Assembly: GCA_017889675.1 (NCBI GenBank)
Contig: JAGGAA010000001.1
Location: forward strand, 1-42,518
Source of the DNA: Bacillota bacterium
GTDB taxonomy: Bacteria; Bacillota; Negativicutes; Sporomusales; Sporomusaceae
Reading direction: 5' to 3'
Length of the DNA stretch: 42,518 nucleotides
A program made the position numbers and the translations under genes. The notes beneath the pieces are model-generated. The model was not told the DNA's origin and ran no database searches. It saw only the letters and a list, made by a program, of their open reading frames with translations. Every line of letters starts with the position of its first letter. Positions within the stretch are counted from its first letter, which is position 1. This document shows positions 20,438 to 38,218 of this stretch, in pieces.

Positions 20438-20647
20438 TTAAGCTGAGACAGAGTGATAATTTAAAAATGAAATAAGTTGTTCGCAAGTACACTGATTAGT
20501 CAACACTTCGCTAGCAATTTTTTCAATAGCTTCAGATTTGACAGTCACATCTATAAGATGTCCGGCAAAGCAACTGCTAAAAATGAGCCGAGTTTTTTCA
20601 TCAATAGATTCCTGCAATACCAATTGCCAATATCCTTTTTTGTTCAT
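20438..20647 (-). CDS. Small hypothetical protein, paralog of 26749..26976
   Basis: MNKKGYWQLVLQESIDEKTRLIFSSCFAGHLIDVTVKSEAIEKIASEVLTNQCTCEQLISFLN; aggagaagatat RBS. Confidence 0.75.
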   Translation of the reverse strand: MNKKGYWQLVLQESIDEKTRLIFSSCFAGHLIDVTVKSEAIEKIASEVLTNQCTCEQLISFLNYHSVSA

Positions 20648-25494: not shown

Positions 25495-26130
25495 CTAACA
25501 CCATAGCTGATGAACACCGACTAATATCAATAGCAAGCCAGAAATTGCTGTAGTGTAGTATCCTAATTTCTTAGCGGCATATTTTTCACCAAAATACACC
25601 CCCAATAGTATAGTGATAAAACTAACTACCCCAACTAAAGCTGATTCCCACAAAGAAGATATACCAATTGCCCCCGCATCGAATCCGCCTGCCAGTGCAT
25701 TTACCGATAATGCTACCCCAAGCAATATCGCTTCCCACGGGCCAATATCTCTTGAGCTATCAATATCGGCCCGTTCCGGGTAACGCAATATTTCCGTAGG
25801 CCCAACATATATTTTTATACTAAATAACTGTAAATTCATTACTGGTTGCTTAGCTTTTACTGCTAAAACTATTGGCTGCATAAGTATCCATACTCCTACA
25901 CCACATAATAGGACAGCTCCTATAATAGCAGCTATTTGGTGGCTTAAATAAACACAGATTAATTCACCCGCTTTGGCTGATAACCATGTCGCTATAAAAG
26001 ATATTACGGCGATTGTCAGATTGGCCATAAAAGATACCCGAATCCTTTGAATACCGTAAGCTATGCCTACCCCAAGATTATCCAAGTTAGCGGCTGAAGC
26101 AATAACAACACTAAGCAATACATAGCCCAA
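25495..26130 (-). CDS. ytaF: YtaF-like sporulation membrane protein (MntP-related)
   Basis: SAANLDNLGVGIAYGIQRIRVSFMANLTIAVIS; ALSVNALAGGFDAGAIG repeat. Confidence 0.88.
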   Translation of the reverse strand: MGYVLLSVVIASAANLDNLGVGIAYGIQRIRVSFMANLTIAVISFIATWLSAKAGELICVYLSHQIAAIIGAVLLCGVGVWILMQPIVLAVKAKQPVMNLQLFSIKIYVGPTEILRYPERADIDSSRDIGPWEAILLGVALSVNALAGGFDAGAIGISSLWESALVGVVSFITILLGVYFGEKYAAKKLGYYTTAISGLLLILVGVHQLWC

Positions 26131-26196
26131 GCTCTATACCTCCTACGAATTGTGCGGCCTTAGTCCATAAAAATACTGTACTCAGAACGTTTATAC

Positions 26197-26454
26197 CTAA
26201 TTTTCAGGCTGAATCTCAGATCCCATATGCTGACTTTCTGCTTGGACAACTTCATCCTGTCTTAGAGTCTCTCTCGCTTCGCGCCCAATGCTTTTGATAG
26301 ATTCAACACCCGAAAGGACTCCCGCTATTCCTGTCACCGCCACAGACCTTAACCCCTTCCTCACACCCGGAATAGCCAATGCCAGAGTAATACCTCCTAC
26401 AACTAGTCCCAAAGGAGCTACTCCTTGCAATATTCGCGAACCATAGCGTAACAT
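26197..26454 (-). CDS. Small single-TM PacL/DUF5132-like protein
   Basis: MLRYGSRILQGVAPLGLVVGGITLALAIPGVRKGLRSVAVTGIAGVL; strongly similar to the N-terminus of 33371..33955. Confidence 0.7.
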   Translation of the reverse strand: MLRYGSRILQGVAPLGLVVGGITLALAIPGVRKGLRSVAVTGIAGVLSGVESIKSIGREARETLRQDEVVQAESQHMGSEIQPEN

Positions 26455-26748
26455 AAAACTCCTCCTTCGAAAAAAGATTTTAAATTATTATTATCACTAT
26501 TAACCTTCTCTATACTGGTTATTAATGATAATAATTTTCTTAAACACCAGAGAAGCAAAAAATAATTATTCAAACTATCAATTTTTGATTATTTTTCTCC
26601 AAATCATAATAAATTCCCCAAAACGGTTAAATTAATCCAAACGAGCCGTTTGCATCCCTTACTGAACTTCAGTATTATTTTAGTAAGAAATATAATTTAT
26701 TTATAAGGAACGCATCAAATCTTAGAAAAGAAGAGAGGAATAGCTTCC

Positions 26749-26976
26749 ATGCCGGACTATAAAAGCCATTGGGAACTTAAGCTGAACCACTCCCTCGGTA
26801 ATAAAACACGTCTTCTCTTTGCCAGCACAAATCGGCGATATCTTGTCGATATTACCCTCCAATCTTCAATCACTAAACAAATAATCCAACACGTTTTAGC
26901 AAACACTTGGAATGGCGACGAACTTATTGATTATCTGAATTCTAAAGTAGCTAATGAGGCAACTGTGGCTTTATAA
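26749..26976 (+). CDS. Small hypothetical protein, paralog of 20438..20647
   Basis: HWELKLNHSLGNKTRLLFASTNRRYLVDITLQSSITKQIIQHVLANTWNGDELIDYLN; agaggaatag RBS. Confidence 0.75.
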   Translation: MPDYKSHWELKLNHSLGNKTRLLFASTNRRYLVDITLQSSITKQIIQHVLANTWNGDELIDYLNSKVANEATVAL

Positions 26977-27044
26977 GCAACACAAATGTTAGGAAATCCA
27001 ATCAACTTTGTTCCAAAGGTCATAACACATCAACGCCCCACGCC

Positions 27045-27080
27045 AAAAACACGTCTTGCTTTTGTACAAGACGTGTTTTT
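27045..27080. terminator. Bidirectional terminator
   Basis: Perfect 14-bp stem aaaaacacgtcttg-cttttgta-caagacgtgttttt between convergent genes. Confidence 0.9.
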
Positions 27081-27095
27081 GCTTCCTAACCACGT

Positions 27096-30000
27096 TCAAA
27101 TCAGCTTGGGCTTGCACGGTGTGACTGTTTCCAACTGTAACGCTGGCACTCCTGCCAACATCTTGGTTAATCCTAAATCCAAGATTGCCGATGCGGAGGC
27201 AACCATAAACGCGATTAACCACTCGGATAAAGTAATTCCAGTTGTACCGAGCACAGGCTGTAGAACCGGAATATAGACAGCGCCAGCCACCATCGCCATG
27301 GACAAAGCTACTGCCCCGACCAACCAGCCATTACTGAACAATCCCACCCTGCCGGAATGCTTTTCTAAACGACAATCAAAAATATGAATAAACTGGCTTA
27401 TCGCTAATTCAACCAACACTAAAGTCCGAGCTGCTAATAGATTACCACCCAATTTCAGTCTCCAATAAAATAATCCTAAACTAGTTAAACCAATACTTAT
27501 CCCCCTGCTAAGAATCTTTCTGCCTAGACCTCCGTCAAAAACACTTTCACTAGCGCTTCTTGGCGGCTGTTGCATAATATTGCGAGCCGGAGGATCATTC
27601 ACCAGAGCAATGGCTGGCAATCCATCTCCCACCAGATTAATCCACAACAATTGAATCGGTATGAGTGGTAACGGTAATCCAGTCATTACGGCCAAAAGCA
27701 TAAGCATTACTTCCCCAATATTCGTAGCAACCAAATAACGAATTGCTTTTCGTATATTGGCATATATGGACCGTCCCTCTTCCATTGCTTTTACAATGGT
27801 GGCGAAATTATCATCCGCCAACGTAAGACTGGCGGCTTCCTTAGTTACATCTGTCCCCGTTAATCCCATTGCGATCCCTATATCCGCCGCTTTTATCGCC
27901 GGTGCATCATTAACACCATCTCCAGTCATTGCAACGATAAATCCTCTCGATTTTAAAGCCGTAATAATCCGTAGCTTATGGTGAGGTGATGTCCGGGCAT
28001 AAACCGACACATGCCGGCTGATCTGCTCTAGTTCCTGATCACTCATATTATCAAGTTCAGAACCCGTTACAATCTGATCACCAGGCAACAAAAGATTAAT
28101 CTCTTTGGCAATTGCGCTGGCAGTATTAGGATGGTCTCCGGTAATCATCACTACTTTTACTCCCGCTTCGTGACATTTAGCAATTGCGGCAGGCACTTCT
28201 GGCCGGGGGGGATCAATCATTCCCTGCATCCCCGTGAAAATGAGACCTTGTTCTAGTTCCTTCTCGCCTTCGCATTCCGCATTGGTAACTGGTCGATAAG
28301 CAAAAGCCAGTACTCGTAAAGCGGCTGAAGTCATTTTCTCATTTGCCACTAAAATTTCGTGCCTTTTATTTTCATCCATTCTCACAACCTTTCCATTATG
28401 CAAAAGATACTCACATGCTACTAATATTTTATCCGGCGAACCTTTACAATGAAGGCTCTTTTCTCCATTCTCATCATAAATTACGGACATCATACGACGT
28501 TCAGATTCAAACGGATTTTCTAATATCCGCAGATATTTCTTGTCTAAATCCTGCTGCCATACTCCTGCCTTAGCAGCCGCCACGATAATGGCCCCTTCTG
28601 TTGGATCTCCGTTTATCCGCCACCCAAAAGCCTTATGGTCTTCCAGCGATACAATTTTACTTCGAACCGATGTTTTTCCATGTGCTAATTTCGCATTGTT
28701 GCATAATGCACCTGTTATCAGTGTCTGCATGATATCCCCATCATTTGTAGGATCAACGGGTACCCCGGAACAAGTGAATTTCCCCACTGGTGAATACCCT
28801 TCTCCGCTTACCTTCCAATATCGCCCATACGTATAGGCTTCCCTTACAGTCATTTCGTTCTTAGTAAGCGTACCAGTTTTATCAGAACAAATTACCGTTG
28901 CACACCCTAATGTCTCAATAGAAGATAGCTTGCGAACAATAATATTCCTTTTACTCATTCGCTGCAATCCCATAGCTAGGGCAATAATAACAATAGCAGT
29001 TAAACCTTCCGGAATTGCTGCCACAGCTAAACTGGCACCCGTCTGTAACATGCTTAATAACGGTTGCCCGTGTAAAAGACCGGCAAAAAACACTAAGCCA
29101 GATACAGCCAGACAACCCCAGACTAAATACTTAGCTAGTTCTTCAAGACGACGCTGCAAGGGCGTAATTTTCTCCTCGTATTCCTGAATTAGCTGGGCAA
29201 CCTTTCCCATTTCAGTAGCCATGCCTGTGGCTATAACTACCGCCGTCGCCCGTCCTCTTGTCACAGAAGTTCCCATATAAACCATGTTATTGCGCTCAGC
29301 AAGAGGTACTAAAGAATTAGCCACAAACATGGCTTCTTTTTTTGCCGGAACTGTTTCACCAGTCAACGACGCTTCTTCCACCTCAAACCGTCTGGAAGTA
29401 AGCAACCTCGCATCTGCCGGAACTTTATCCCCTGCTTCCAGGACAATGATATCTCCAGGTACTAATTCTTGGGCTTTTATTTTTCTTGTACGTCCCTCCC
29501 GAATCACATTCGCCTGAGGAGCAGCCATTTTTTGCAAGGCATCCAAAGATTTTTCCGCTTTCTGTTCCTGAACCACTCCCAGAATCGCATTGGCAACCAC
29601 AATAGCCAATGTCAAAAACGAGTCTTTTTTCCGTCCGAGTACAAAAGACAAACCAGCAGCACCAATTAAAACCTGCACCATCAAATCCTTAAATTGATGA
29701 ATCAGTAGTTTCCAAAAGCCGGGGGTTTCTTTTTTTTCAAGAAGGTTCGCCCCATACTGCATCCGCCTTGTATCTGCTTCTCTTTCACTCAGCCCACACT
29801 CCGGTGAAGTATCCATGCGCTCACAGGTTAGTTCGGGAGACAAAGAGAAAACCTCATTATTGGAATTCTCTTTTCCTTTTAAGGCGGGAAAAACTAGTTC
29901 GGCAGGAGATTTAGTGGGTACTACACCGGTTCTTACACTATTAAAACGTTGAAGATCTAATGCCGAATCTTTTACAACAGCGTTGTGCTTAAACACCCGC

Positions 30001-31970
30001 GCGGAATTTGCCAAAACCACCAACGTACTAAAATTTATTAACAGCGTCGCCGCAACCGGAGCAATAAATCGGGCCGCCGCCAGCGCAATTCCTACCACCC
30101 CTAATCCCACCGACACGGCCAAATTCTGACGGACGATTTCATCCGTATATTTGCTTAAATGCACAAGGTTAGGAAGCTTTCGTAAATCATCTCCTTTAAT
30201 AATAACATCGGCCGCCCGGGCAGTGACATTATCATGGCAACCTAAAGAAATACCAATATCCGCGTCCACGAATGCCTGTGAAGCATTTTTACCGGCACCA
30301 ACCATTACAACACGGCGTCCTTCTCGTTGCAATCCTCTGATTATTGCGGACTTATCATTGGCCCGAACATTACTCCACTGGTTCGTAAATCCAAGTTCAT
30401 CCGTAGCAGCGGTTTGCTCCTCCCCGCTAATTAACCCGATATGATCAATACCTAATACTCTGAGACGGGTTATTGCCTCATCACTTTCATTTCTAACCTT
30501 ATCTCTATAGCCAACCAGTCCCATAGGCCTCCCATCAACAGCAACATAAAGCACATGTAGTCCTAAATGCTGCATCCGGCGGATTCTAGCCTTGGCACGT
30601 CCTAGCTTGATGTTCTCTTGATTCATAAAAGCCTCGCTACCCGCCGCAACTTGATATTCGCCAACGTTACACCGCACACCCAAATCATCAAGCACAAAAC
30701 TGTCCGTCGGAATCAAACTCAAACCTTTTTTTTCCGCATACTTAGCCATCATTCTACCAACCGGCTTTTGGGTTGCAGCAACAGCTGAAGCGGTAAGTTC
30801 CACTGCTTCAGCCTCGGTGAATTTCTTTTCTAATATAACCAATTCCTCGATCTCGGGAAGCGCCGTAACAATAGTACTTTCCTTGTCCAATATAAAAGTA
30901 TCCGCCTTACTAATACTTTCGAAATGGCCTGCATCTTTAACATATACCCCGTCACGCGCCGCAGCCCCTAGCGCCGCCCCTACTGCTGTATGCCGCGAAA
31001 GAGCTACTGCTATTGGACACCCGGCAAGCAGTACCGCCAGACTTCGCGCTACATCCCGTGTCAACAAATAGGTTAACCCCGCAATCCCAATACTCCACGG
31101 AACTAACTTTTCAGCATAGTAATCCGTCTTAAGAGCAGCCGACTTCCTATGGTTTACATTGGGAATGAAATCCTCTTGTCCAACATCATTTCCATCCTTC
31201 CCACCTATTTTCGCTACATTCTCAGTCTTTTTGCCACTCAAACCGGAAACACAGCCATATTCGCCACCGGCCATTTCTCTAATAGCTGCATGAGTGCGAA
31301 CTTGCATCACATGCCTAAAAAGATTGCTTAGATGCACAATCCATAGCACCGACAACCCTGTAATACTCTCCCGCATAGCTAACAAAATCAAAGTAGCTGA
31401 GAAAATAATAAGATCGGAATTAAACTTTTTCTTTTGTGCCAACCGCTTTAAACCATTTCTCAAAATCGGATAACCTGAAATTAAAGTGGTAATGGCTGCC
31501 AGGTTAAAGACTCGCTGCGATGCAGCTAACGGTGAACGCCCGACAAACATCCGTTTTAAAAAAATTCCTGCCAGAGCACCGCCTGTAGCAATTGTATATA
31601 CCAATGGATAATTCGTCGGTTCACCAGATGTCGCTTGTATTGTAGCTGCAACTTCCGCTTGAACATTGGCGACACTTTTCTTTAAACTCTCCTTACTCTT
31701 AGAAGCTTGAACAATACCGTGCATGTATACCGTCCAGCATTGAGCAATTTGCTGTTGAATATCTGCAAAACCTATTACATCGACATCAAAATAAATCAGT
31801 GCTCTACCAGTCAAGGGATTGGCAGTCACATCTGTTATCCCTTTTAACTTACGTAAACGTCCTATCAAGAATCTCCCATAAATTGAATTTCGCCGGAGAC
31901 CATCTACCTCAATACGTAACCGCCCCGGAAGCAATCGATATTTGGGGGCCATAAAAACTGAAGTCACCAC
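27096..31970 (-). CDS. Giant double-module P-type ATPase (HMA-like N-terminus, degenerate ATPase module, active P2A-type ATPase module)
   Basis: C-terminal TGETVPAKK, AAIPEGLTAIV, CSDKTGTLTKNEMTV, MTGDGVNDAPAIKAADIGIAMG; N-terminal degenerate DKEST and VGAGKNASQAFVDADIGIS. Confidence 0.96.
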   Translation of the reverse strand: MVTSVFMAPKYRLLPGRLRIEVDGLRRNSIYGRFLIGRLRKLKGITDVTANPLTGRALIYFDVDVIGFADIQQQIAQCWTVYMHGIVQASKSKESLKKSVANVQAEVAATIQATSGEPTNYPLVYTIATGGALAGIFLKRMFVGRSPLAASQRVFNLAAITTLISGYPILRNGLKRLAQKKKFNSDLIIFSATLILLAMRESITGLSVLWIVHLSNLFRHVMQVRTHAAIREMAGGEYGCVSGLSGKKTENVAKIGGKDGNDVGQEDFIPNVNHRKSAALKTDYYAEKLVPWSIGIAGLTYLLTRDVARSLAVLLAGCPIAVALSRHTAVGAALGAAARDGVYVKDAGHFESISKADTFILDKESTIVTALPEIEELVILEKKFTEAEAVELTASAVAATQKPVGRMMAKYAEKKGLSLIPTDSFVLDDLGVRCNVGEYQVAAGSEAFMNQENIKLGRAKARIRRMQHLGLHVLYVAVDGRPMGLVGYRDKVRNESDEAITRLRVLGIDHIGLISGEEQTAATDELGFTNQWSNVRANDKSAIIRGLQREGRRVVMVGAGKNASQAFVDADIGISLGCHDNVTARAADVIIKGDDLRKLPNLVHLSKYTDEIVRQNLAVSVGLGVVGIALAAARFIAPVAATLLINFSTLVVLANSARVFKHNAVVKDSALDLQRFNSVRTGVVPTKSPAELVFPALKGKENSNNEVFSLSPELTCERMDTSPECGLSEREADTRRMQYGANLLEKKETPGFWKLLIHQFKDLMVQVLIGAAGLSFVLGRKKDSFLTLAIVVANAILGVVQEQKAEKSLDALQKMAAPQANVIREGRTRKIKAQELVPGDIIVLEAGDKVPADARLLTSRRFEVEEASLTGETVPAKKEAMFVANSLVPLAERNNMVYMGTSVTRGRATAVVIATGMATEMGKVAQLIQEYEEKITPLQRRLEELAKYLVWGCLAVSGLVFFAGLLHGQPLLSMLQTGASLAVAAIPEGLTAIVIIALAMGLQRMSKRNIIVRKLSSIETLGCATVICSDKTGTLTKNEMTVREAYTYGRYWKVSGEGYSPVGKFTCSGVPVDPTNDGDIMQTLITGALCNNAKLAHGKTSVRSKIVSLEDHKAFGWRINGDPTEGAIIVAAAKAGVWQQDLDKKYLRILENPFESERRMMSVIYDENGEKSLHCKGSPDKILVACEYLLHNGKVVRMDENKRHEILVANEKMTSAALRVLAFAYRPVTNAECEGEKELEQGLIFTGMQGMIDPPRPEVPAAIAKCHEAGVKVVMITGDHPNTASAIAKEINLLLPGDQIVTGSELDNMSDQELEQISRHVSVYARTSPHHKLRIITALKSRGFIVAMTGDGVNDAPAIKAADIGIAMGLTGTDVTKEAASLTLADDNFATIVKAMEEGRSIYANIRKAIRYLVATNIGEVMLMLLAVMTGLPLPLIPIQLLWINLVGDGLPAIALVNDPPARNIMQQPPRSASESVFDGGLGRKILSRGISIGLTSLGLFYWRLKLGGNLLAARTLVLVELAISQFIHIFDCRLEKHSGRVGLFSNGWLVGAVALSMAMVAGAVYIPVLQPVLGTTGITLSEWLIAFMVASASAILDLGLTKMLAGVPALQLETVTPCKPKLI

Positions 31971-32169
31971 TATGTTCCTCCTACCCGCATTGTTATCCGA
32001 TTTTTACCCAATGCAGGTAGTATTTTCAAACTCATAACTTAGTATGCAAAATATCGGGGGTAACTTTCCCCCAAAAATAAGCATGAAAGCAGATGCTATT
32101 TCACATCAACCCTATAACAAAAATAAGCAAAGCGTCTGCTTTGCCATAAGAGTTATCTTCTGAGAATTC

Positions 32170-32331
32170 TTATTGATATTTATCATTATATATATTTATT
32201 ATAGCGCTTCCAAATAGCACCAGTACCCCCGCACTCATTATGATCTTTAACAAACTCGAGGATAAGGTGCCGGACATAATTGCCAAAAAAGAAACCGTAC
32301 AAAGCAAAACTAAATTAGTACGATCTGTCAT
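32170..32331 (-). CDS. Unlisted 53-aa hydrophobic micro-ORF
   Basis: MTDRTNLVLLCTVSFLAIMSGTLSSSLLKIIMSAGVLVLFGSAIINIYNDKYQ; aaaggaagatag RBS. Confidence 0.6.
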   Translation of the reverse strand: MTDRTNLVLLCTVSFLAIMSGTLSSSLLKIIMSAGVLVLFGSAIINIYNDKYQ

Positions 32332-32365
32332 ATACTCTATCTTCCTTTAATATTTTTTCTCAAAA

Positions 32366-33277
32366 TCAACCAGCTATACAGCATCGCGTTTCTTTCTTGA
32401 AAGACTTATGCTCCATCCGCTTTTTGACTTTTTCTATTTCTTTTTCGTAGTGAAGCTCCCACACCACATCGTATAATTCGTAAAAGCTTATAGCAGCCAT
32501 ACGGCATGTGTCCTTTGCTAATTTTCGTTGAACTGAATTTAGAATGCCTGCAATTTGACTAATCATAGTCTGCCGGACTCGTAAAACGTTTTGTTTGGGG
32601 CAACAGTCAACCATTTTTAAAACACTTTCCCCTGGTTTCATCTTTTTAGCGAGCTTCTTAACTAGGAAAAACACTTTAAACTGATCAACATATTCCCGAT
32701 ATGACTGACTAATTAATTCTTCTGAACTCTCTATAATATGCATTGTTCTCAAATATTCTTGAATTAATCCATCAATATAATGTATATTTCCTTGAACCCC
32801 ATAGTCACCATAATGCATATTCACAAAAGCAACCGCTCCAAAATGTTTCTCTGTTTCCCTTTGTATAATATTCCTAAGCTCTTTCACGAGAATATCCAAA
32901 TCGCTTCGAGAAAGAATATTGTTATAAAAAGCGTCTTGGTCAAATACCTTTCTCTCAATTATTAGGTCAACAAAAATGCTAATTCTGTCCAAACGGCTTT
33001 GAAAAAACTCTTCTATTCGTTGGTTAATTGCCTGATGACAATAATCCACCTTATCACTCACTGCAGTAGCTTGCCGTTCTAAAGTCTGGTGTAAGAAAAA
33101 TATTCTCGCTGCAGCGTTACTCTGAAACCGTGCCTTCAGCAACATCGGAGTATTGATTGCCTTTATCTTCTTATATGGCCTATAATAATTTATTCCTAAT
33201 ATTTTACGTGCCACAAACCTTACGCTCCATCCTTTGCTACCTATACACATATAGCATATGTTATTTTGGTTTTTCAA
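32366..33277 (-). CDS. Hypothetical protein, about 300 aa, helical
   Basis: Long ORF; start uncertain. Confidence 0.7.
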   Translation of the reverse strand: MKNQNNICYMCIGSKGWSVRFVARKILGINYYRPYKKIKAINTPMLLKARFQSNAAARIFFLHQTLERQATAVSDKVDYCHQAINQRIEEFFQSRLDRISIFVDLIIERKVFDQDAFYNNILSRSDLDILVKELRNIIQRETEKHFGAVAFVNMHYGDYGVQGNIHYIDGLIQEYLRTMHIIESSEELISQSYREYVDQFKVFFLVKKLAKKMKPGESVLKMVDCCPKQNVLRVRQTMISQIAGILNSVQRKLAKDTCRMAAISFYELYDVVWELHYEKEIEKVKKRMEHKSFKKETRCCIAG

Positions 33278-33370
33278 TGGTTAAGGACATGTTAAACCTT
33301 TGTAAATATAATTACATAAGCCCTTTCTGACAAGGAAATACTGAATATAAACGCAAGGAGGTGCCCATTG

Positions 33371-33955
33371 ATGAATGTACTACGATGGGGAACAAAAATA
33401 ATTGAGAACGCATCGCCAGCTGGCTTAATTCTTGCCGGTACGGCGTTGGCGCTCACCACCCCACCGTTCCGCAGAAAACTGCGCGGTGTCGCAGTGATGG
33501 CCACTCGTGGGGTTCTTGTAGCAACAGAAACCGTACAAAACACCGCATTGACACTACGGGAAGGATTAGAAGACATTGTAGCCGAGGCGAAAGCATCTTC
33601 CGATCCATTGGCAGAAGATGAAAAAAACAAGTGTACGCTGACAACCGCTGTCAAAAATCACGGACGCCGCTTGGCAGTGACGGCTGCCGCTGGTGCCTTA
33701 GCCGTCCGCGATGAATTTAACAATATTGTTGAAGAAGCTAAAAAGGAATCCCCCACTAATGAAGAAAATACCGAGATGAATGCTTTGACCGAGTCGGCGG
33801 AAACCAAAGGTTCAAATGAAGCTGAATTTCAAGCTACTAATCAACCACTTGCACTCTCCGAAACTACTGCTCCAGACCACGAAATCCTTGAAGAAGTCGA
33901 ACCCGACATCGGTTCAACCACTTCTCTCAAAAGGCGTACCCGTAGTAATAAGTAA
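33371..33955 (+). CDS. PacL/DUF5132-like protein with duplicated helical tail
   Basis: MNVLRWGTKIIENASPAGLILAGTALALTTPPFRRKLRGVAVMATRGVL; aaggaggtg RBS. Confidence 0.75.
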   Translation: MNVLRWGTKIIENASPAGLILAGTALALTTPPFRRKLRGVAVMATRGVLVATETVQNTALTLREGLEDIVAEAKASSDPLAEDEKNKCTLTTAVKNHGRRLAVTAAAGALAVRDEFNNIVEEAKKESPTNEENTEMNALTESAETKGSNEAEFQATNQPLALSETTAPDHEILEEVEPDIGSTTSLKRRTRSNK

Positions 33956-33960
33956 ATATA

Positions 33961-33995
33961 AAAACTCTCTCCGCAGCAACGCGGAGAGAGTTTTT
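33961..33995. terminator. Rho-independent terminator
   Basis: Perfect 14-bp stem aaaactctctccgc-agcaac-gcggagagagtttt. Confidence 0.9.
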
Positions 33996-34227
33996 AAAAT
34001 ATCTTTAAACGAGTCCAAGAAATACCCGCCAAAAGGTTATCCTTAGATTGTTGGCTTCGCTTTTTTACATATCCGAAAAATTCCCCAAGAAATTCTTCCC
34101 ACAACTTTACTACCTCAGTCTTATCTTGAGCGGATTGTGCCCGAAGCTCAATACTCAAATCGACTGCTTCATGCAACTCTCTGGTCATGCCCTTAATCTT
34201 TTCCCGTAAAGATTCTACTGTAGCCAA
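33994..34227 (-). CDS. Small helical hypothetical protein
   Basis: ATVESLREKIKGMTRELHEAVDLSIELRAQ...; gggagggg RBS before a TTG. Confidence 0.6.
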   Translation of the reverse strand: MATVESLREKIKGMTRELHEAVDLSIELRAQSAQDKTEVVKLWEEFLGEFFGYVKKRSQQSKDNLLAGISWTRLKIF

Positions 34228-34244
34228 AAAATCCCCTCCCAATA

Positions 34245-34880
34245 TTATTCGTGCTCCGGTTCTAATGGCGCACCTGTTTCAGTAGTAGCCTCGTTTTCCA
34301 TTGACTCTTCCAAAATTCCCGAATCAATGGATTGTTTAAATTTTTCAAATTGAGCTTCACTAACAAGATCTTCTATATCTTCTTTGACTCCACTAAATAG
34401 GCCCTTTACTTGGTCTGAAAGTGCAATAACCCCTTGTACCGTTTTTACCGCTAGAGGCCGTATTTGCTCTCGCACACCAGGTAGTAACAATGCCCCAACT
34501 GCAGCAGCCCCCAGCCAGAAACTTGCATCTCTGCCGGTCGTTGTCTTAATCTGATGATTAAAGCGGCGGCGTGATCGGGCAAGCGCTCCCATATCCGGGC
34601 TGTTCTCCACTAAATCAATAAGCTCCGCCAATCCAAGTAGCTCCTTGCGTTCCTGCCGAATCATACGCTGTAGTGTTTTTCGAGCGTAAGGATCAGTGAC
34701 AGAAGCTAGCTGCTTCTCATATGTGTTTACCGCAGCCAGCTTAGCCTCAAAAATCTGTTCCATACCAATCATCGAATCTTCGTTAGCTGTTTCCGATAGT
34801 CGCTCCCTCAATCGCTGCGCTCGGGAAATTTTTCGGTCCTTTGGCGTAGTTTCCATTGCCTGATTCTCGATGCTTGCCAT
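34245..34880 (-). CDS. Ferritin-like helical hairpin plus PacL/DUF5132-like TM protein
   Basis: FEAKLAAVNTYEKQLASVTDPYARKTLQRMIRQERKELLGLAELIDLVE then FWLGAAAVGALLLPGVREQIRPLAVKTVQGVIAL. Confidence 0.7.
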   Translation of the reverse strand: MASIENQAMETTPKDRKISRAQRLRERLSETANEDSMIGMEQIFEAKLAAVNTYEKQLASVTDPYARKTLQRMIRQERKELLGLAELIDLVENSPDMGALARSRRRFNHQIKTTTGRDASFWLGAAAVGALLLPGVREQIRPLAVKTVQGVIALSDQVKGLFSGVKEDIEDLVSEAQFEKFKQSIDSGILEESMENEATTETGAPLEPEHE

Positions 34881-35010
34881 AATAAGCTCTCTCCCCATCT
34901 GGAATATTATTCTAATATACTATCCAAAATTAACCACATTTATACAGCATTCCATCCCCTATCCATGTTTTTATCTAATTTGTAGATACTACATCTAGGA
35001 GGTGATAAAT

Positions 35011-35133
35011 ATGCATTGGCTATTGATTCGTCCAGCAATCGGATGGGGAGCATTTTTACTCATCCACGCCCTCGGTATTCCTCTGGTCTATAAAACGGGA
35101 AAGGCTGTTTCAACTAAACTAAGACCGCAATAA
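35011..35133 (+). CDS. Unlisted 40-aa single-TM micro-ORF
   Basis: MHWLLIRPAIGWGAFLLIHALGIPLVYKTGKAVSTKLRPQ; taggaggtgataaat RBS and downstream terminator. Confidence 0.75.
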   Translation: MHWLLIRPAIGWGAFLLIHALGIPLVYKTGKAVSTKLRPQ

Positions 35134-35666: not shown

Positions 35667-35870
35667 ATGTTTAGTTTTAATACAGGCGAACTTGTTCTAG
35701 TGTTAATTATCGCCTTAGTAGTCTTTGGTCCCGGAAAGCTACCCGATGTTGGCAAAGCAATTGGCCGAAGTGTAAAAGAATTTCGTCACGCCACAACAGG
35801 TGAGAATGTAAGAGAAAAAACTGAAGTCACTCATCACTGTTTGCCAACCGAGGCAGGAGAAAAAAAATGA
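35667..35870 (+). CDS. tatA: Sec-independent translocase TatA
   Basis: ELVLVLIIALVVFGPGKLPDVGKAIGRSVKEFR. Confidence 0.97.
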   Translation: MFSFNTGELVLVLIIALVVFGPGKLPDVGKAIGRSVKEFRHATTGENVREKTEVTHHCLPTEAGEKK

Positions 35871-35877
35871 GGTTATC

Positions 35878-36603
35878 ATGTCAGTTGTAAATAACTATCA
35901 CCCTGCTGATCTTGGAGCAATGACCCTCATCGGGCATCTTCAAGAGCTGCGTAAGCGGCTGCTTATTAGTATCATTGCTTTTGGAATCACTAGCAGCATA
36001 AGCTATTTCTTTTCTAGTAATTTAGTGCAATTATTAATATCTTCAGTTAATAAAGTATATTTTTTGAATCCGGCTGAAGCCTTTTTTACCTACCTTAAGG
36101 TCTCTGCTTTCAGTGGATTTATTCTGGCACTTCCCCTTATTATGCAGCAAGCCTGGAGCTTTGTCGGGCCAGCACTTACAGAACAAGAACGCAAGGTTTT
36201 CAGTATCCTGATACCCGCTTCCTATGTGCTATTTTTAGCTGGAATTACTTTTTCTTATTTTCTGGTCTTGCCAGCAGGAATTAAATTTTTTTTGAGCTTT
36301 GCTACGGACGAGCTTCAACCCCTATTTTCACTAGGTCAATATCTATCATTTGTTATTTCTTTTCTATTACCCTTTGGCTTTATCTTCGAAATTCCACTTA
36401 TTATTATTGGATTAGCCTACTGGCGAATTATTAGCTCCCTGTTCTTAGTCAAAAAACGCAAAATCATTTTAGTGCTGGCATTTATCATCGGTGCAATAAT
36501 TTCGCCAACCCCCGATATTTTTTCACAAACTATGGTAGCGGTGCCAATAGTATTGTTATATGAGATCAGCCTTTTTATCGTGAAATATGGTCTACACAAG
36601 TAA
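35878..36603 (+). CDS. tatC: Sec-independent translocase TatC
   Basis: LIGHLQELRKRLLISI; SFVGPALTEQERKVF; FGFIFEIPLIIIGL. Confidence 0.97.
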   Translation: MSVVNNYHPADLGAMTLIGHLQELRKRLLISIIAFGITSSISYFFSSNLVQLLISSVNKVYFLNPAEAFFTYLKVSAFSGFILALPLIMQQAWSFVGPALTEQERKVFSILIPASYVLFLAGITFSYFLVLPAGIKFFLSFATDELQPLFSLGQYLSFVISFLLPFGFIFEIPLIIIGLAYWRIISSLFLVKKRKIILVLAFIIGAIISPTPDIFSQTMVAVPIVLLYEISLFIVKYGLHK

Positions 36604-36769: not shown

Positions 36770-38218
36770 TTACCAATTCTTCCCATTTTTACAATTAACA
36801 ATAAGATTGTTGTCACCCAACGGGGATGCTGTTCCGATTGATAATAAAAACTTGCCTAATACTTGCTGGTATTGCCCTGTCACTGAATCTTCCGAAGCAG
36901 CTAACGCTTGATATATGGCTTGTGTTTGCCCATCAATATCCACATCCCCGCAATAATGCGCAAGCATTGCATTAACAAACAAATCGCTAACGGTAACGGT
37001 AAAAAAGACTGGGGTCGTAGCAAACTTAGCCGCCATTGCTGCAGCTTGTGATTGTGAAAGTCCTGCATTTAGCTGCATAATAATAGCCGTAAGCTGCTGA
37101 ATAAACAATTCTTTCATATTCCCAGCCGTAAATTTTTTGGCATATCTTTGAAAATCCAGAGGAGCAACCGAAAAAGCAGTATGTGTTACCCGGGATGATG
37201 TAATTGCTAGCCGGTTCTTATCAGGGGACAACCGGACAAAACGATAAGGAATCGGATAAGTTACTAACGACCCGGTTTCAATATCTAACAACGTGTTATT
37301 ATCAAATATCGCTCTAGAAATATTCTGGGCATGAAAATGCCCTGTAAACACCACTTGTAACCCCAGCTCACTTAGACTACGCCCTACCTCATCATAATCA
37401 TCCAGTATGTACTCGGGGAAATAATCCGGTTGTGCCGAAAAATGCGGTACAATACCGTGATGCATCATGCCAATGATCATTTTCCCTTGCTGGCCTGCCT
37501 CTCGCAATTGATTTTTTATCCAAGTCAACCGACTATCCGGAAGCGCTCCAGATGTCACCGGTAAAGTATTATTAGCATCATATTTGCAAGAATCCATTGC
37601 AATAATCCGTAATCCGTCGACAGGTTCAACAACATAGCTTAATGAATTAGGATCTGTTGCAATAGCCTGCCTATAACCAAATTCACTGTAGATATTTTTA
37701 AAATCATCCGGTCCAATAGTCGGAACCCTCGTTTGCGAAGCTCCGCTATAACTATACGCATTGGGGTTGTAAATATCGTGATTTCCATTAATAACCAATG
37801 CCTTTTTGCCGCACTCGGTCAAGCCACTTAACATGTCCGCAACCCGCTGATGACAAATAAGTTCTCCATCTTTGGTAAGATCACCACAGATAAGCACTAT
37901 TTCGGCATTACTTTTTTTCACGGTATCAATGGCGCTGATCAACGTAGTATGACTTTCGGTCAGCATTTTTCTATCCCCGGCTAAATAAGTTTCAAACGCT
38001 GATCCTGTCGTCCCAAGTTCCGGTGCGTAATAGTGAATATCTGATAACACAGCAAAGTTTACATCAGCAATGGGCTTTGACGGCGATATCGCAGCCAAAG
38101 CATTACTTAACGGATTCAGAGCGAGTGTAACAGTTGTTCCAAGGGCTATCTGCAAAAAATGCCGACGTGACAGCGTTTCATTATTATTGCAGCCTTTATC
38201 CTTTGTATCATCAAACAT
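36770..38218 (-). CDS. Calcineurin-like metallophosphoesterase with Tat signal
   Basis: SRRHFLQIALGTTVTLAL twin-arginine; LSDIHY, CGDLTKDGE, INGNHDIYN, MMHHGIV, FTGHFHAQN. Confidence 0.95.
   Translation of the reverse strand: MFDDTKDKGCNNNETLSRRHFLQIALGTTVTLALNPLSNALAAISPSKPIADVNFAVLSDIHYYAPELGTTGSAFETYLAGDRKMLTESHTTLISAIDTVKKSNAEIVLICGDLTKDGELICHQRVADMLSGLTECGKKALVINGNHDIYNPNAYSYSGASQTRVPTIGPDDFKNIYSEFGYRQAIATDPNSLSYVVEPVDGLRIIAMDSCKYDANNTLPVTSGALPDSRLTWIKNQLREAGQQGKMIIGMMHHGIVPHFSAQPDYFPEYILDDYDEVGRSLSELGLQVVFTGHFHAQNISRAIFDNNTLLDIETGSLVTYPIPYRFVRLSPDKNRLAITSSRVTHTAFSVAPLDFQRYAKKFTAGNMKELFIQQLTAIIMQLNAGLSQSQAAAMAAKFATTPVFFTVTVSDLFVNAMLAHYCGDVDIDGQTQAIYQALAASEDSVTGQYQQVLGKFLLSIGTASPLGDNNLIVNCKNGKNW

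Follow-up and report, generated by a model that had tools for sequence, protein, structure and literature searches.

The DNA studied here is a 42,518-nucleotide stretch (the window; positions 1 to 42,518 of contig JAGGAA010000001.1, assembly GCA_017889675.1) from a Bacillota bacterium of the family Sporomusaceae, class Negativicutes. At positions 25495–35133 it carries an island in which a giant P-type ATPase of 1624 residues is encoded among three related single-transmembrane (TM) proteins, here called S1, S2 and S3, together with YtaF and three further small TM or helical proteins, coil303, h82 and tm40 (Table 1). An earlier sequence-only reading had pointed out this arrangement; its coordinates and open reading frames (ORFs) check out, and h82, coil303 and tm40 are real and kept in relatives. 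Pfam and NCBIfam scans of the island placed YtaF above cut-off and recognized an HMA_2 domain at the N-terminus and a PMR1/SERCA-type Ca ATPase at the C-terminus of the giant ATPase; S1, S2, S3, coil303 and h82 had no match above cut-off. Coil303 gave a good AlphaFold2 (AF2) model, yet no PDB match at E ≤ 0.001. The system is real, conserved and unusual; it is probably a new variant of the pump platforms built on the mycobacterial scaffold protein PacL (DUF1490), and there are strong hints of a role in iron.

Table 1. Genes and features of the island, in window coordinates.
Feature	Position	Strand	Description
YtaF	25495..26130	-	MntP-like membrane protein, adjoins S1; TIGR02840 161.4 bits (above cut-off), Mntp 4.6e-16
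S1	26197..26454	-	PacL/DUF1490-like single-TM protein, 85 aa; motif, one TM and one repeat; S1/S2 profile against DUF1490 92% (hhalign); 38% identity with S2
Fur-like box	26526..26540		Upstream of S1-ytaF; two mismatches to TGATAATNATTATCA; weak alone
Giant P-type ATPase	27096..31970	-	1624 aa; HMA_2, degenerate P1B6-derived half and P2A half; no internal stops
ATPase, N-terminal half	29901..31970	-	aa 1-690; HMA_2, then P1B6-like half predicted dead from motif losses, AlphaFold model and PDB matches
ATPase, C-terminal half	27096..29870	-	About aa 701-1624; P2A, Ca/Mn-type; TIGR01522 738.9 bits; LMCA1/SPCA1 best solved relatives
coil303	32366..33277	-	All-helical protein; alignment; AF2 pLDDT 83; heads the Fur-box unit in sister clusters
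S2	33371..33955	+	PacL/DUF1490-like single-TM protein, 194 aa; two cytoplasmic repeats (AVxxTRGxL...DIVxEAR)
h82	33994..34242	-	Short helical protein, mostly adjoining S3; alignment; kept in 19/24 Negativicutes loci
S3	34245..34880	-	211 aa; probable encapsulated-ferritin-like hairpin (ligands lost), TM and PacL/DUF5132-like repeat
tm40	35011..35133	+	40-aa single-TM protein (RPAIGWGxFLLxHAxGIPxVY); kept in 11/24 Negativicutes loci

Translated in all six frames, the window has exactly three matches to the motif PxxRxx[LI]Rx[VL]AV, one per S protein (PGVRKGLRSVAV, PPFRRKLRGVAV and PGVREQIRPLAV), and the ten matches among 975 called proteins (253,369 residues, window and related loci) fall in the S family only. 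Within the window's own assembly, S2 as query matched solely S2, S1 and S3 (E 1.9e-119, 2.1e-9 and 0.005), and the S1/S2 and S3 profiles align with an hhalign probability of 98%. By these comparisons the three are a single protein family, and the alignment places in each a TM helix followed by a cytoplasmic repeat ending in DIVxEAR, which S2 holds twice. Searches of plasmid records with S2 gave no matches.

Profile comparisons support a kinship of this family with PacL. S1/S2 aligned with DUF1490 at an hhalign probability of 92% (E 6.7e-7, score 39), with 60 column-shuffled nulls peaking at a score of 18; reversed and unrelated-family controls reached at most 22, against 34–39 for the S comparisons. 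DUF1490 was also the family most frequently matched by S1/S2 members (10/19). The S2 of one relative, locus L060, exceeds the Pfam cut-off for DUF1490 (PF07371; 32.5 vs 28.4 bits), and the top match of a DUF1490 search of the whole genome G083 is that same S2, which adjoins the giant ATPase. The 85% hhalign probability of S1/S2 with DUF6110 is level with that of DUF6110 with DUF1490; the curated cut-off of DUF6110 (PF19605) was not reached (S2 E 0.17), and a DUF6110 search of 120 Negativicutes genomes matched other genes, not the S cluster. For DUF5132, searches of 120 Negativicutes genomes gave 16 matches, 13 of them in S3, which was the top match in 13 genomes; the curated cut-off (PF17195) was passed in none of the 120 Negativicutes and none of 398 Bacillota genomes. 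We therefore describe S1 and S2 as PacL/DUF1490-like and S3 as DUF5132-like. The sequence-only reading had proposed just such kinship and had named absence of profile similarity as grounds for dropping it; similarity was found, to DUF1490 for S1/S2 and to DUF5132 for S3.

The two halves of the giant ATPase are unlike. In the N-terminal half the HMA_2 domain (31.2 bits) precedes a sequence in which DKTG has become DKES, GDGxND GAGKNA, CPC CPI and HN IN, and in which the A domain is an unstructured remnant with TGE gone. The AlphaFold model of this half shows an HMA fold and good P and N domains, with low confidence where the A domain would lie; its top PDB matches are CopA (4bbj) and ZntA (4umv/4umw). 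Sequence and model together indicate a P1B6-derived half that is catalytically dead and has lost its metal ligands. Two active tandem pumps are rejected for the window on these grounds (DKES, GAGKNA, A domain gone). The earlier label of a 'double P-type ATPase' was right about two ATPase-type halves and wrong about two pumps, only the C-terminal half being catalytically intact.

Decay of the N-terminal half is widespread among relatives. Among fused forms, L133 alone retains CPC and HN; all others have lost the second Cys of the former and the His of the latter. TGE is lost in nearly all (L058 retains it), and DKTG and GDGxND are lost in several. Relatives with intact DKTG may still have two active pumps in tandem, though in most of these the N-half has no TGE, and CPC and HN are both missing from nearly all. 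Fused and stand-alone pseudo-halves cluster together in a tree, beside intact P1B6-like pumps. The N-half is less conserved than the C-half in all 120 pairs compared (medians 42% vs 61%). Its ratio of nonsynonymous to synonymous substitution rates (dN/dS) is 0.11–0.24 in three pairs of relatives, and the pseudo-half is therefore under purifying selection in those lineages. The genomes G143, G107 and G111 encode the pseudo-half separately from the P2A pump, which there bears its own HMA_2. In L065–L067 and L069 a pseudo-half of ~500 aa adjoins S3/h82; these loci have an intact P1B6-like pump and lack a P2A half. These separate-gene forms are natural separations of the pseudo-half from the P2A half. 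The literature searched contained no description of a P-type ATPase with a dead P1B6 N-terminal half apparently kept as a subunit.

The P2A half has the motifs TGET, PEGL, DKTGTLT, DPPR, TGD and TGDGVNDAPA intact, and it alone of the two halves looks active. Its score against TIGR01522 (738.9 bits) is under the equivalog cut-off of 798.3, and LMCA1 and SPCA1 are its nearest solved relatives by sequence. The residues NxGE in TM5 and NLxGDGLPA in TM6 are consistent with a single Ca2+/Mn2+ site like that of PMR1/SPCA.

Full-length relatives were found by a contig scan in UBA5324, Lucifera butyrica, Propionispora and one Selenomonadales metagenome-assembled genome, surrounded by varying sets of S proteins, coil303, h82, tm40 and ytaF. 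In a survey of the Negativicutes, 200 genomes of the class were searched and 20 neighbourhoods fetched; counts refer to 24 loci including the window, and gene starts in related loci come from our own ORF caller. S proteins are present in 23 of the 24 loci, coil303 in 21, h82 in 19, tm40 in 11 and ytaF in eight. More widely, the S3 profile matches 24/398 Bacillota genomes, and P-type ATPases occur in 18 of the 20 other-Bacillota loci fetched with S3-profile matches and in all Negativicutes loci. Since gene sets are conserved across loci, the grouping is not due to chance. The set of ATPase, S proteins, coil303, h82 and tm40 is conserved across the Negativicutes, with a looser version in other Bacillota, so that the neighbourhood check suggested with the sequence-only reading came out in its favour.

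A decayed cluster is seen in a near relative (L068; genome G074, contig C122, 8000–12800), where the ATPase is in three short pieces, coil303 and S3 are truncated and S2 is missing. S1-ytaF (ytaF as two tblastn pieces) and h82 persist in this natural partial knock-out, a hint that S1-ytaF is a unit separate from the rest of the cluster.

Intact P1B6-like pumps with CPC and HN, which are of the type of CtpC, the pump served by PacL, lie in 13 of 44 clusters. These separate neighbour pumps keep the full P1B motifs (ALTGEP, CPC, DKTGT, GDGINDSP and HN in TM6), and the combination of CPC and HN is a CtpC/P1B6-like signature (PMC9374683). The top plasmid matches of an intact neighbour pump include pumps of Rhodococcus and Pseudonocardia, of which the annotated ones lie directly 3' of DUF1490 genes. 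A different HMA_2/P1B arrangement was seen on a Priestia megaterium plasmid (L093, 2626–6162), where a P1B ATPase is flanked by three separate HMA2 proteins.

The link to iron comes from regulation and from S3. A scan of 45 loci (857 kb) gave five perfect Fur boxes and five with one mismatch; every perfect box and three of the others lie no more than 150 bp upstream of coil303. The box of L051, which has one mismatch, overlaps a called short ORF. For the Zur box and for five artificial control palindromes there was no site upstream of coil303 at any mismatch level, and PerR gave none that was perfect. PerR, Zur and MntR-type boxes were set aside as explanations, having neither a perfect site nor comparable enrichment. 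Loci with Fur boxes span several Bacillota families (L051, L057–L060, L065–L067, L069, L129, L131, L134, L136, L137, L139). Given the perfect boxes before coil303 in sister clusters, the cluster family is probably iron-controlled, and the regulatory signal detected is that of Fur (iron), rather than one for zinc or calcium. Within the window alone, Fur-like sites number nine against 4.9 expected, which is not significant, and an Rfam scan revealed neither the Mn riboswitch (yybP-ykoY) nor any other Rfam RNA.

The N-terminal domain of S3 resembles encapsulated ferritins. EncB_fam is matched by 13 of 14 Negativicutes S3 proteins (best 3.9e-5) and the encapsulated-ferritin model by nine; the window's S3 has no NCBIfam match even at E 1. 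Distant S3 proteins of L134 and L135 score 2.8e-8 and 7.3e-8, under the curated cut-off, and match EncC and bacterioferritin structures. The residues E, Y and ExxH are kept in four distant members (L134, L135, L141, L142); in all 20 aligned Negativicutes S3 proteins, including that of the window, the first E is replaced by K and the H by E or Q. Because direct profile comparison of the Negativicutes N-domain with a local ferritin-like cluster reached only 11%, the ferritin link runs via the distant members. Most likely, then, S3 is a membrane-tethered, encapsulated-ferritin-like protein whose site has been lost in the window's lineage. The name DUF2383 was set aside for this domain, as that model matches many other genes in the same genomes and the EncB/EncC match is more specific. 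In three S3 relatives (L136 6218–7261, L137 9846–10856, L139 9235–10143) long low-complexity N-terminal regions rich in Gly/Tyr/Asn or in His precede the TM module.

The closest known counterpart is the mycobacterial effluxosome of PacL and CtpC/CtpG/CtpV, where PacL repeats bind the N-terminal metal-binding domain of CtpC and PacL clusters the pumps (PMC9374683, PMC13043812). Both systems place small single-TM proteins, with a repeat ending in D[IV]VxEAR, beside P-type ATPases; several PacL-like proteins occur per cluster, and the P1B6-like pumps of the sister clusters share the CPC and HN of CtpC. Unlike PacL, the S proteins have no His metal-binding tail or conserved GxxG, and S3 adds a ferritin-like domain; the window's partner pump is a fusion of pseudo-P1B and P2A halves, coil303, h82 and tm40 are extra conserved members, and the family has Fur boxes. 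The PacL-like DUF6110 proteins found with P1B6 ATPases in Firmicutes (PMC13043812) are comparable in their 85% profile similarity and in having a P1B ATPase alongside in all 16 DUF6110 loci checked, although they form a separate family and Fur boxes were absent at the loci checked. By description alone, the giant ATPases CtpH/CtpI (FUPA24; PMC3573892, PMC10654040) are similar in being P2-type and about twice the normal length, with functional motifs in the C-terminal half, whereas they are not known to be scaffolded; a search of plasmid records for CtpH/CtpI relatives recovered P2A halves only. Encapsulin cargo ferritins (EncB/EncC/EncFtn) have the two-helix hairpin that the N-terminus of S3 resembles, and distant S3 proteins retain the E, Y and ExxH. 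In S3, by contrast, the domain is predicted to be tethered to the membrane through the PacL-like module, and the ligands have given way to K and E/Q in the 20 Negativicutes proteins. Ferrosome genes, again compared by description alone, pair a Fur-controlled membrane protein with a metal transporter: FezA and FezB are Fur-repressed and required for ferrosomes (PMC12574912), the latter putatively transporting ferrous iron (PMC10979944). In the family described here, Fur boxes are clear in sister clusters and weak in the window. They differ in that the cytochrome fezC was not noted in our clusters, and the readable parts of the ferrosome sources report neither a pseudo-P1B and P2A fusion nor an encapsulin-type ferritin domain.

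The combined results suggest a Fur-linked assembly of P-type ATPase scaffolded by PacL-like proteins, best read as having an active P2A half and a dead half that serves as docking or regulatory subunit, for a divalent metal that is probably iron or manganese; we rate this at somewhat better than an even chance. The Gly/Ala TM helices of S1–S3 would associate within the membrane, and their cytoplasmic AV..T.G...DIVxEAR repeats may bind the HMA_2 domain and the pseudo-P1B half, by analogy with PacL repeats on the metal-binding domain of CtpC. The dead P1B6 half would have been retained for docking or regulation, with the P2A half as the sole ATP-hydrolysing motor; Mn2+, Fe2+ or Ca2+ would probably be the divalent cation that it exports. 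In sister clusters the iron work may be done by an intact P1B6-like pump and the membrane-tethered ferritin-like S3, the whole forming a scaffolded platform for iron handling or iron/manganese efflux. The sequence-only reading had likewise envisaged a multi-component platform; PacL kinship and neighbourhood agree with it, and its picture of the ATPase as two pumps does not survive. In a bolder and doubtful version, Bacillota would have a Fur-controlled iron compartment or platform at the membrane that has not been described before: P1B6-like pumps would load an encapsulin-type ferritin, itself tethered to the membrane by a PacL-like module. Two components would by now be pseudoenzymes in the Negativicutes, namely the ferritin domain and one copy of the pump, the dead pump being fused to a P2A ATPase as a docking or control subunit.

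Several observations weigh against the scaffolded assembly. The window's own S proteins score under the Pfam cut-offs; S1 and S2 lack the C-terminal His metal-binding motif of PacL, none of the three has a His-rich tail, and the conserved GxxG is absent from the TM of S1/S2, where alignment A4 has one invariant Gly (G23) and the spacing GxxxxG. No intact P1B6-like pump is present in the available sequence of the window's genome (58% complete, 382 contigs), and the window has no good Fur box before coil303, just the two-mismatch site before S1-ytaF. The pseudo-half clade has a Shimodaira–Hasegawa-like approximate likelihood ratio (SH-aLRT) support of only 88% and several long branches, the dN/dS values come from three pairs of relatives, and the site II residues of the P2A half suit Ca2+ equally with Mn2+.

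The main competing explanation, which we consider unlikely, is a ferrosome-like iron store, in which the P1B6-like pump of sister clusters loads Fe2+ into membrane-bound compartments, and the tethered ferritin-like S3 organizes these together with PacL/DUF5132-like proteins; the window would be a derived remnant. Fur boxes upstream of coil303-P1B units, the E...ExxH of the four distant S3 proteins, the company of P1B6-like pumps and PacL-like proteins, and the putative role of FezB in ferrous iron transport (PMC10979944) are all in keeping with such a store, whereas a FezC-type cytochrome was not noted in the clusters and the window has neither an intact P1B6 pump nor the ferritin ligands of S3. 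Quite unlikely is plain Ca2+/Mn2+ efflux, with Ca2+ or Mn2+ as the cargo of the P2A half and Mn2+ leaving through YtaF/MntP; the pseudo-P1B half would then be an inactive relic, and the S proteins would have a small accessory part that is not that of a scaffold. The likeness of the C-half to LMCA1, SPCA1 and TIGR01522 and the presence of ytaF in a third of the loci (8/24) would suit this explanation; it fits poorly with purifying selection on the N-half in relatives, with the N-half as a separate gene beside S3/h82 where the P2A half is absent (L065–L069), and with Fur control and S proteins that accompany P1B6-like pumps too. We think it very improbable that the S proteins resemble PacL without homology, through Ala/Gly-rich TM helices and amphipathic repeats alone. 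The sub-threshold Pfam scores of the window's own members point that way, as do weak S matches from YtxH, apolipoproteins and other amphipathic families, but the shuffled, reversed and unrelated-family controls do not reproduce the score and a composition artefact was rejected; S2 of L060 exceeds the DUF1490 cut-off, and S proteins and PacL pair with the same pump type.

The scaffolded assembly, if correct, would bring to diderm Firmicutes the PacL idea, so far one of Actinobacteria, of small scaffolds gathering metal pumps, and would tie it to iron via Fur and a ferritin-like domain. New here are the pseudo-P1B6 and P2A makeup of the ATPase, the P1B6-like partner pumps in the clusters, the Fur boxes before coil303 and the ferritin-like N-terminus of S3. 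A dead P1B6 N-terminal half, apparently retained as a subunit, also offers a testable guess at the nature of the long N-terminal half of CtpH/CtpI.

Other features lie around the island. X75, a small uncharacterized family, has two copies in the window (20438–20647, minus strand; 26749–26976, plus strand) and further members in five related loci. Between converging genes, at 27037–27081 and 33960–33997, inverted repeats lead into T runs and were judged by eye to be terminators; the latter gave a meaningless miRNA match in Rfam. In the regions 35667–36603 and 36770–38218, TatA and TatC adjoin the island and are followed, on the opposite strand, by a protein that resembles phosphoesterases and has a twin-arginine signal. 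Among related loci, a pair of DUF445 membrane proteins adjoins the cluster of L057 (15711–18270), and two genes with the same lengths as this pair occupy the matching place in L056 (9211–11770).

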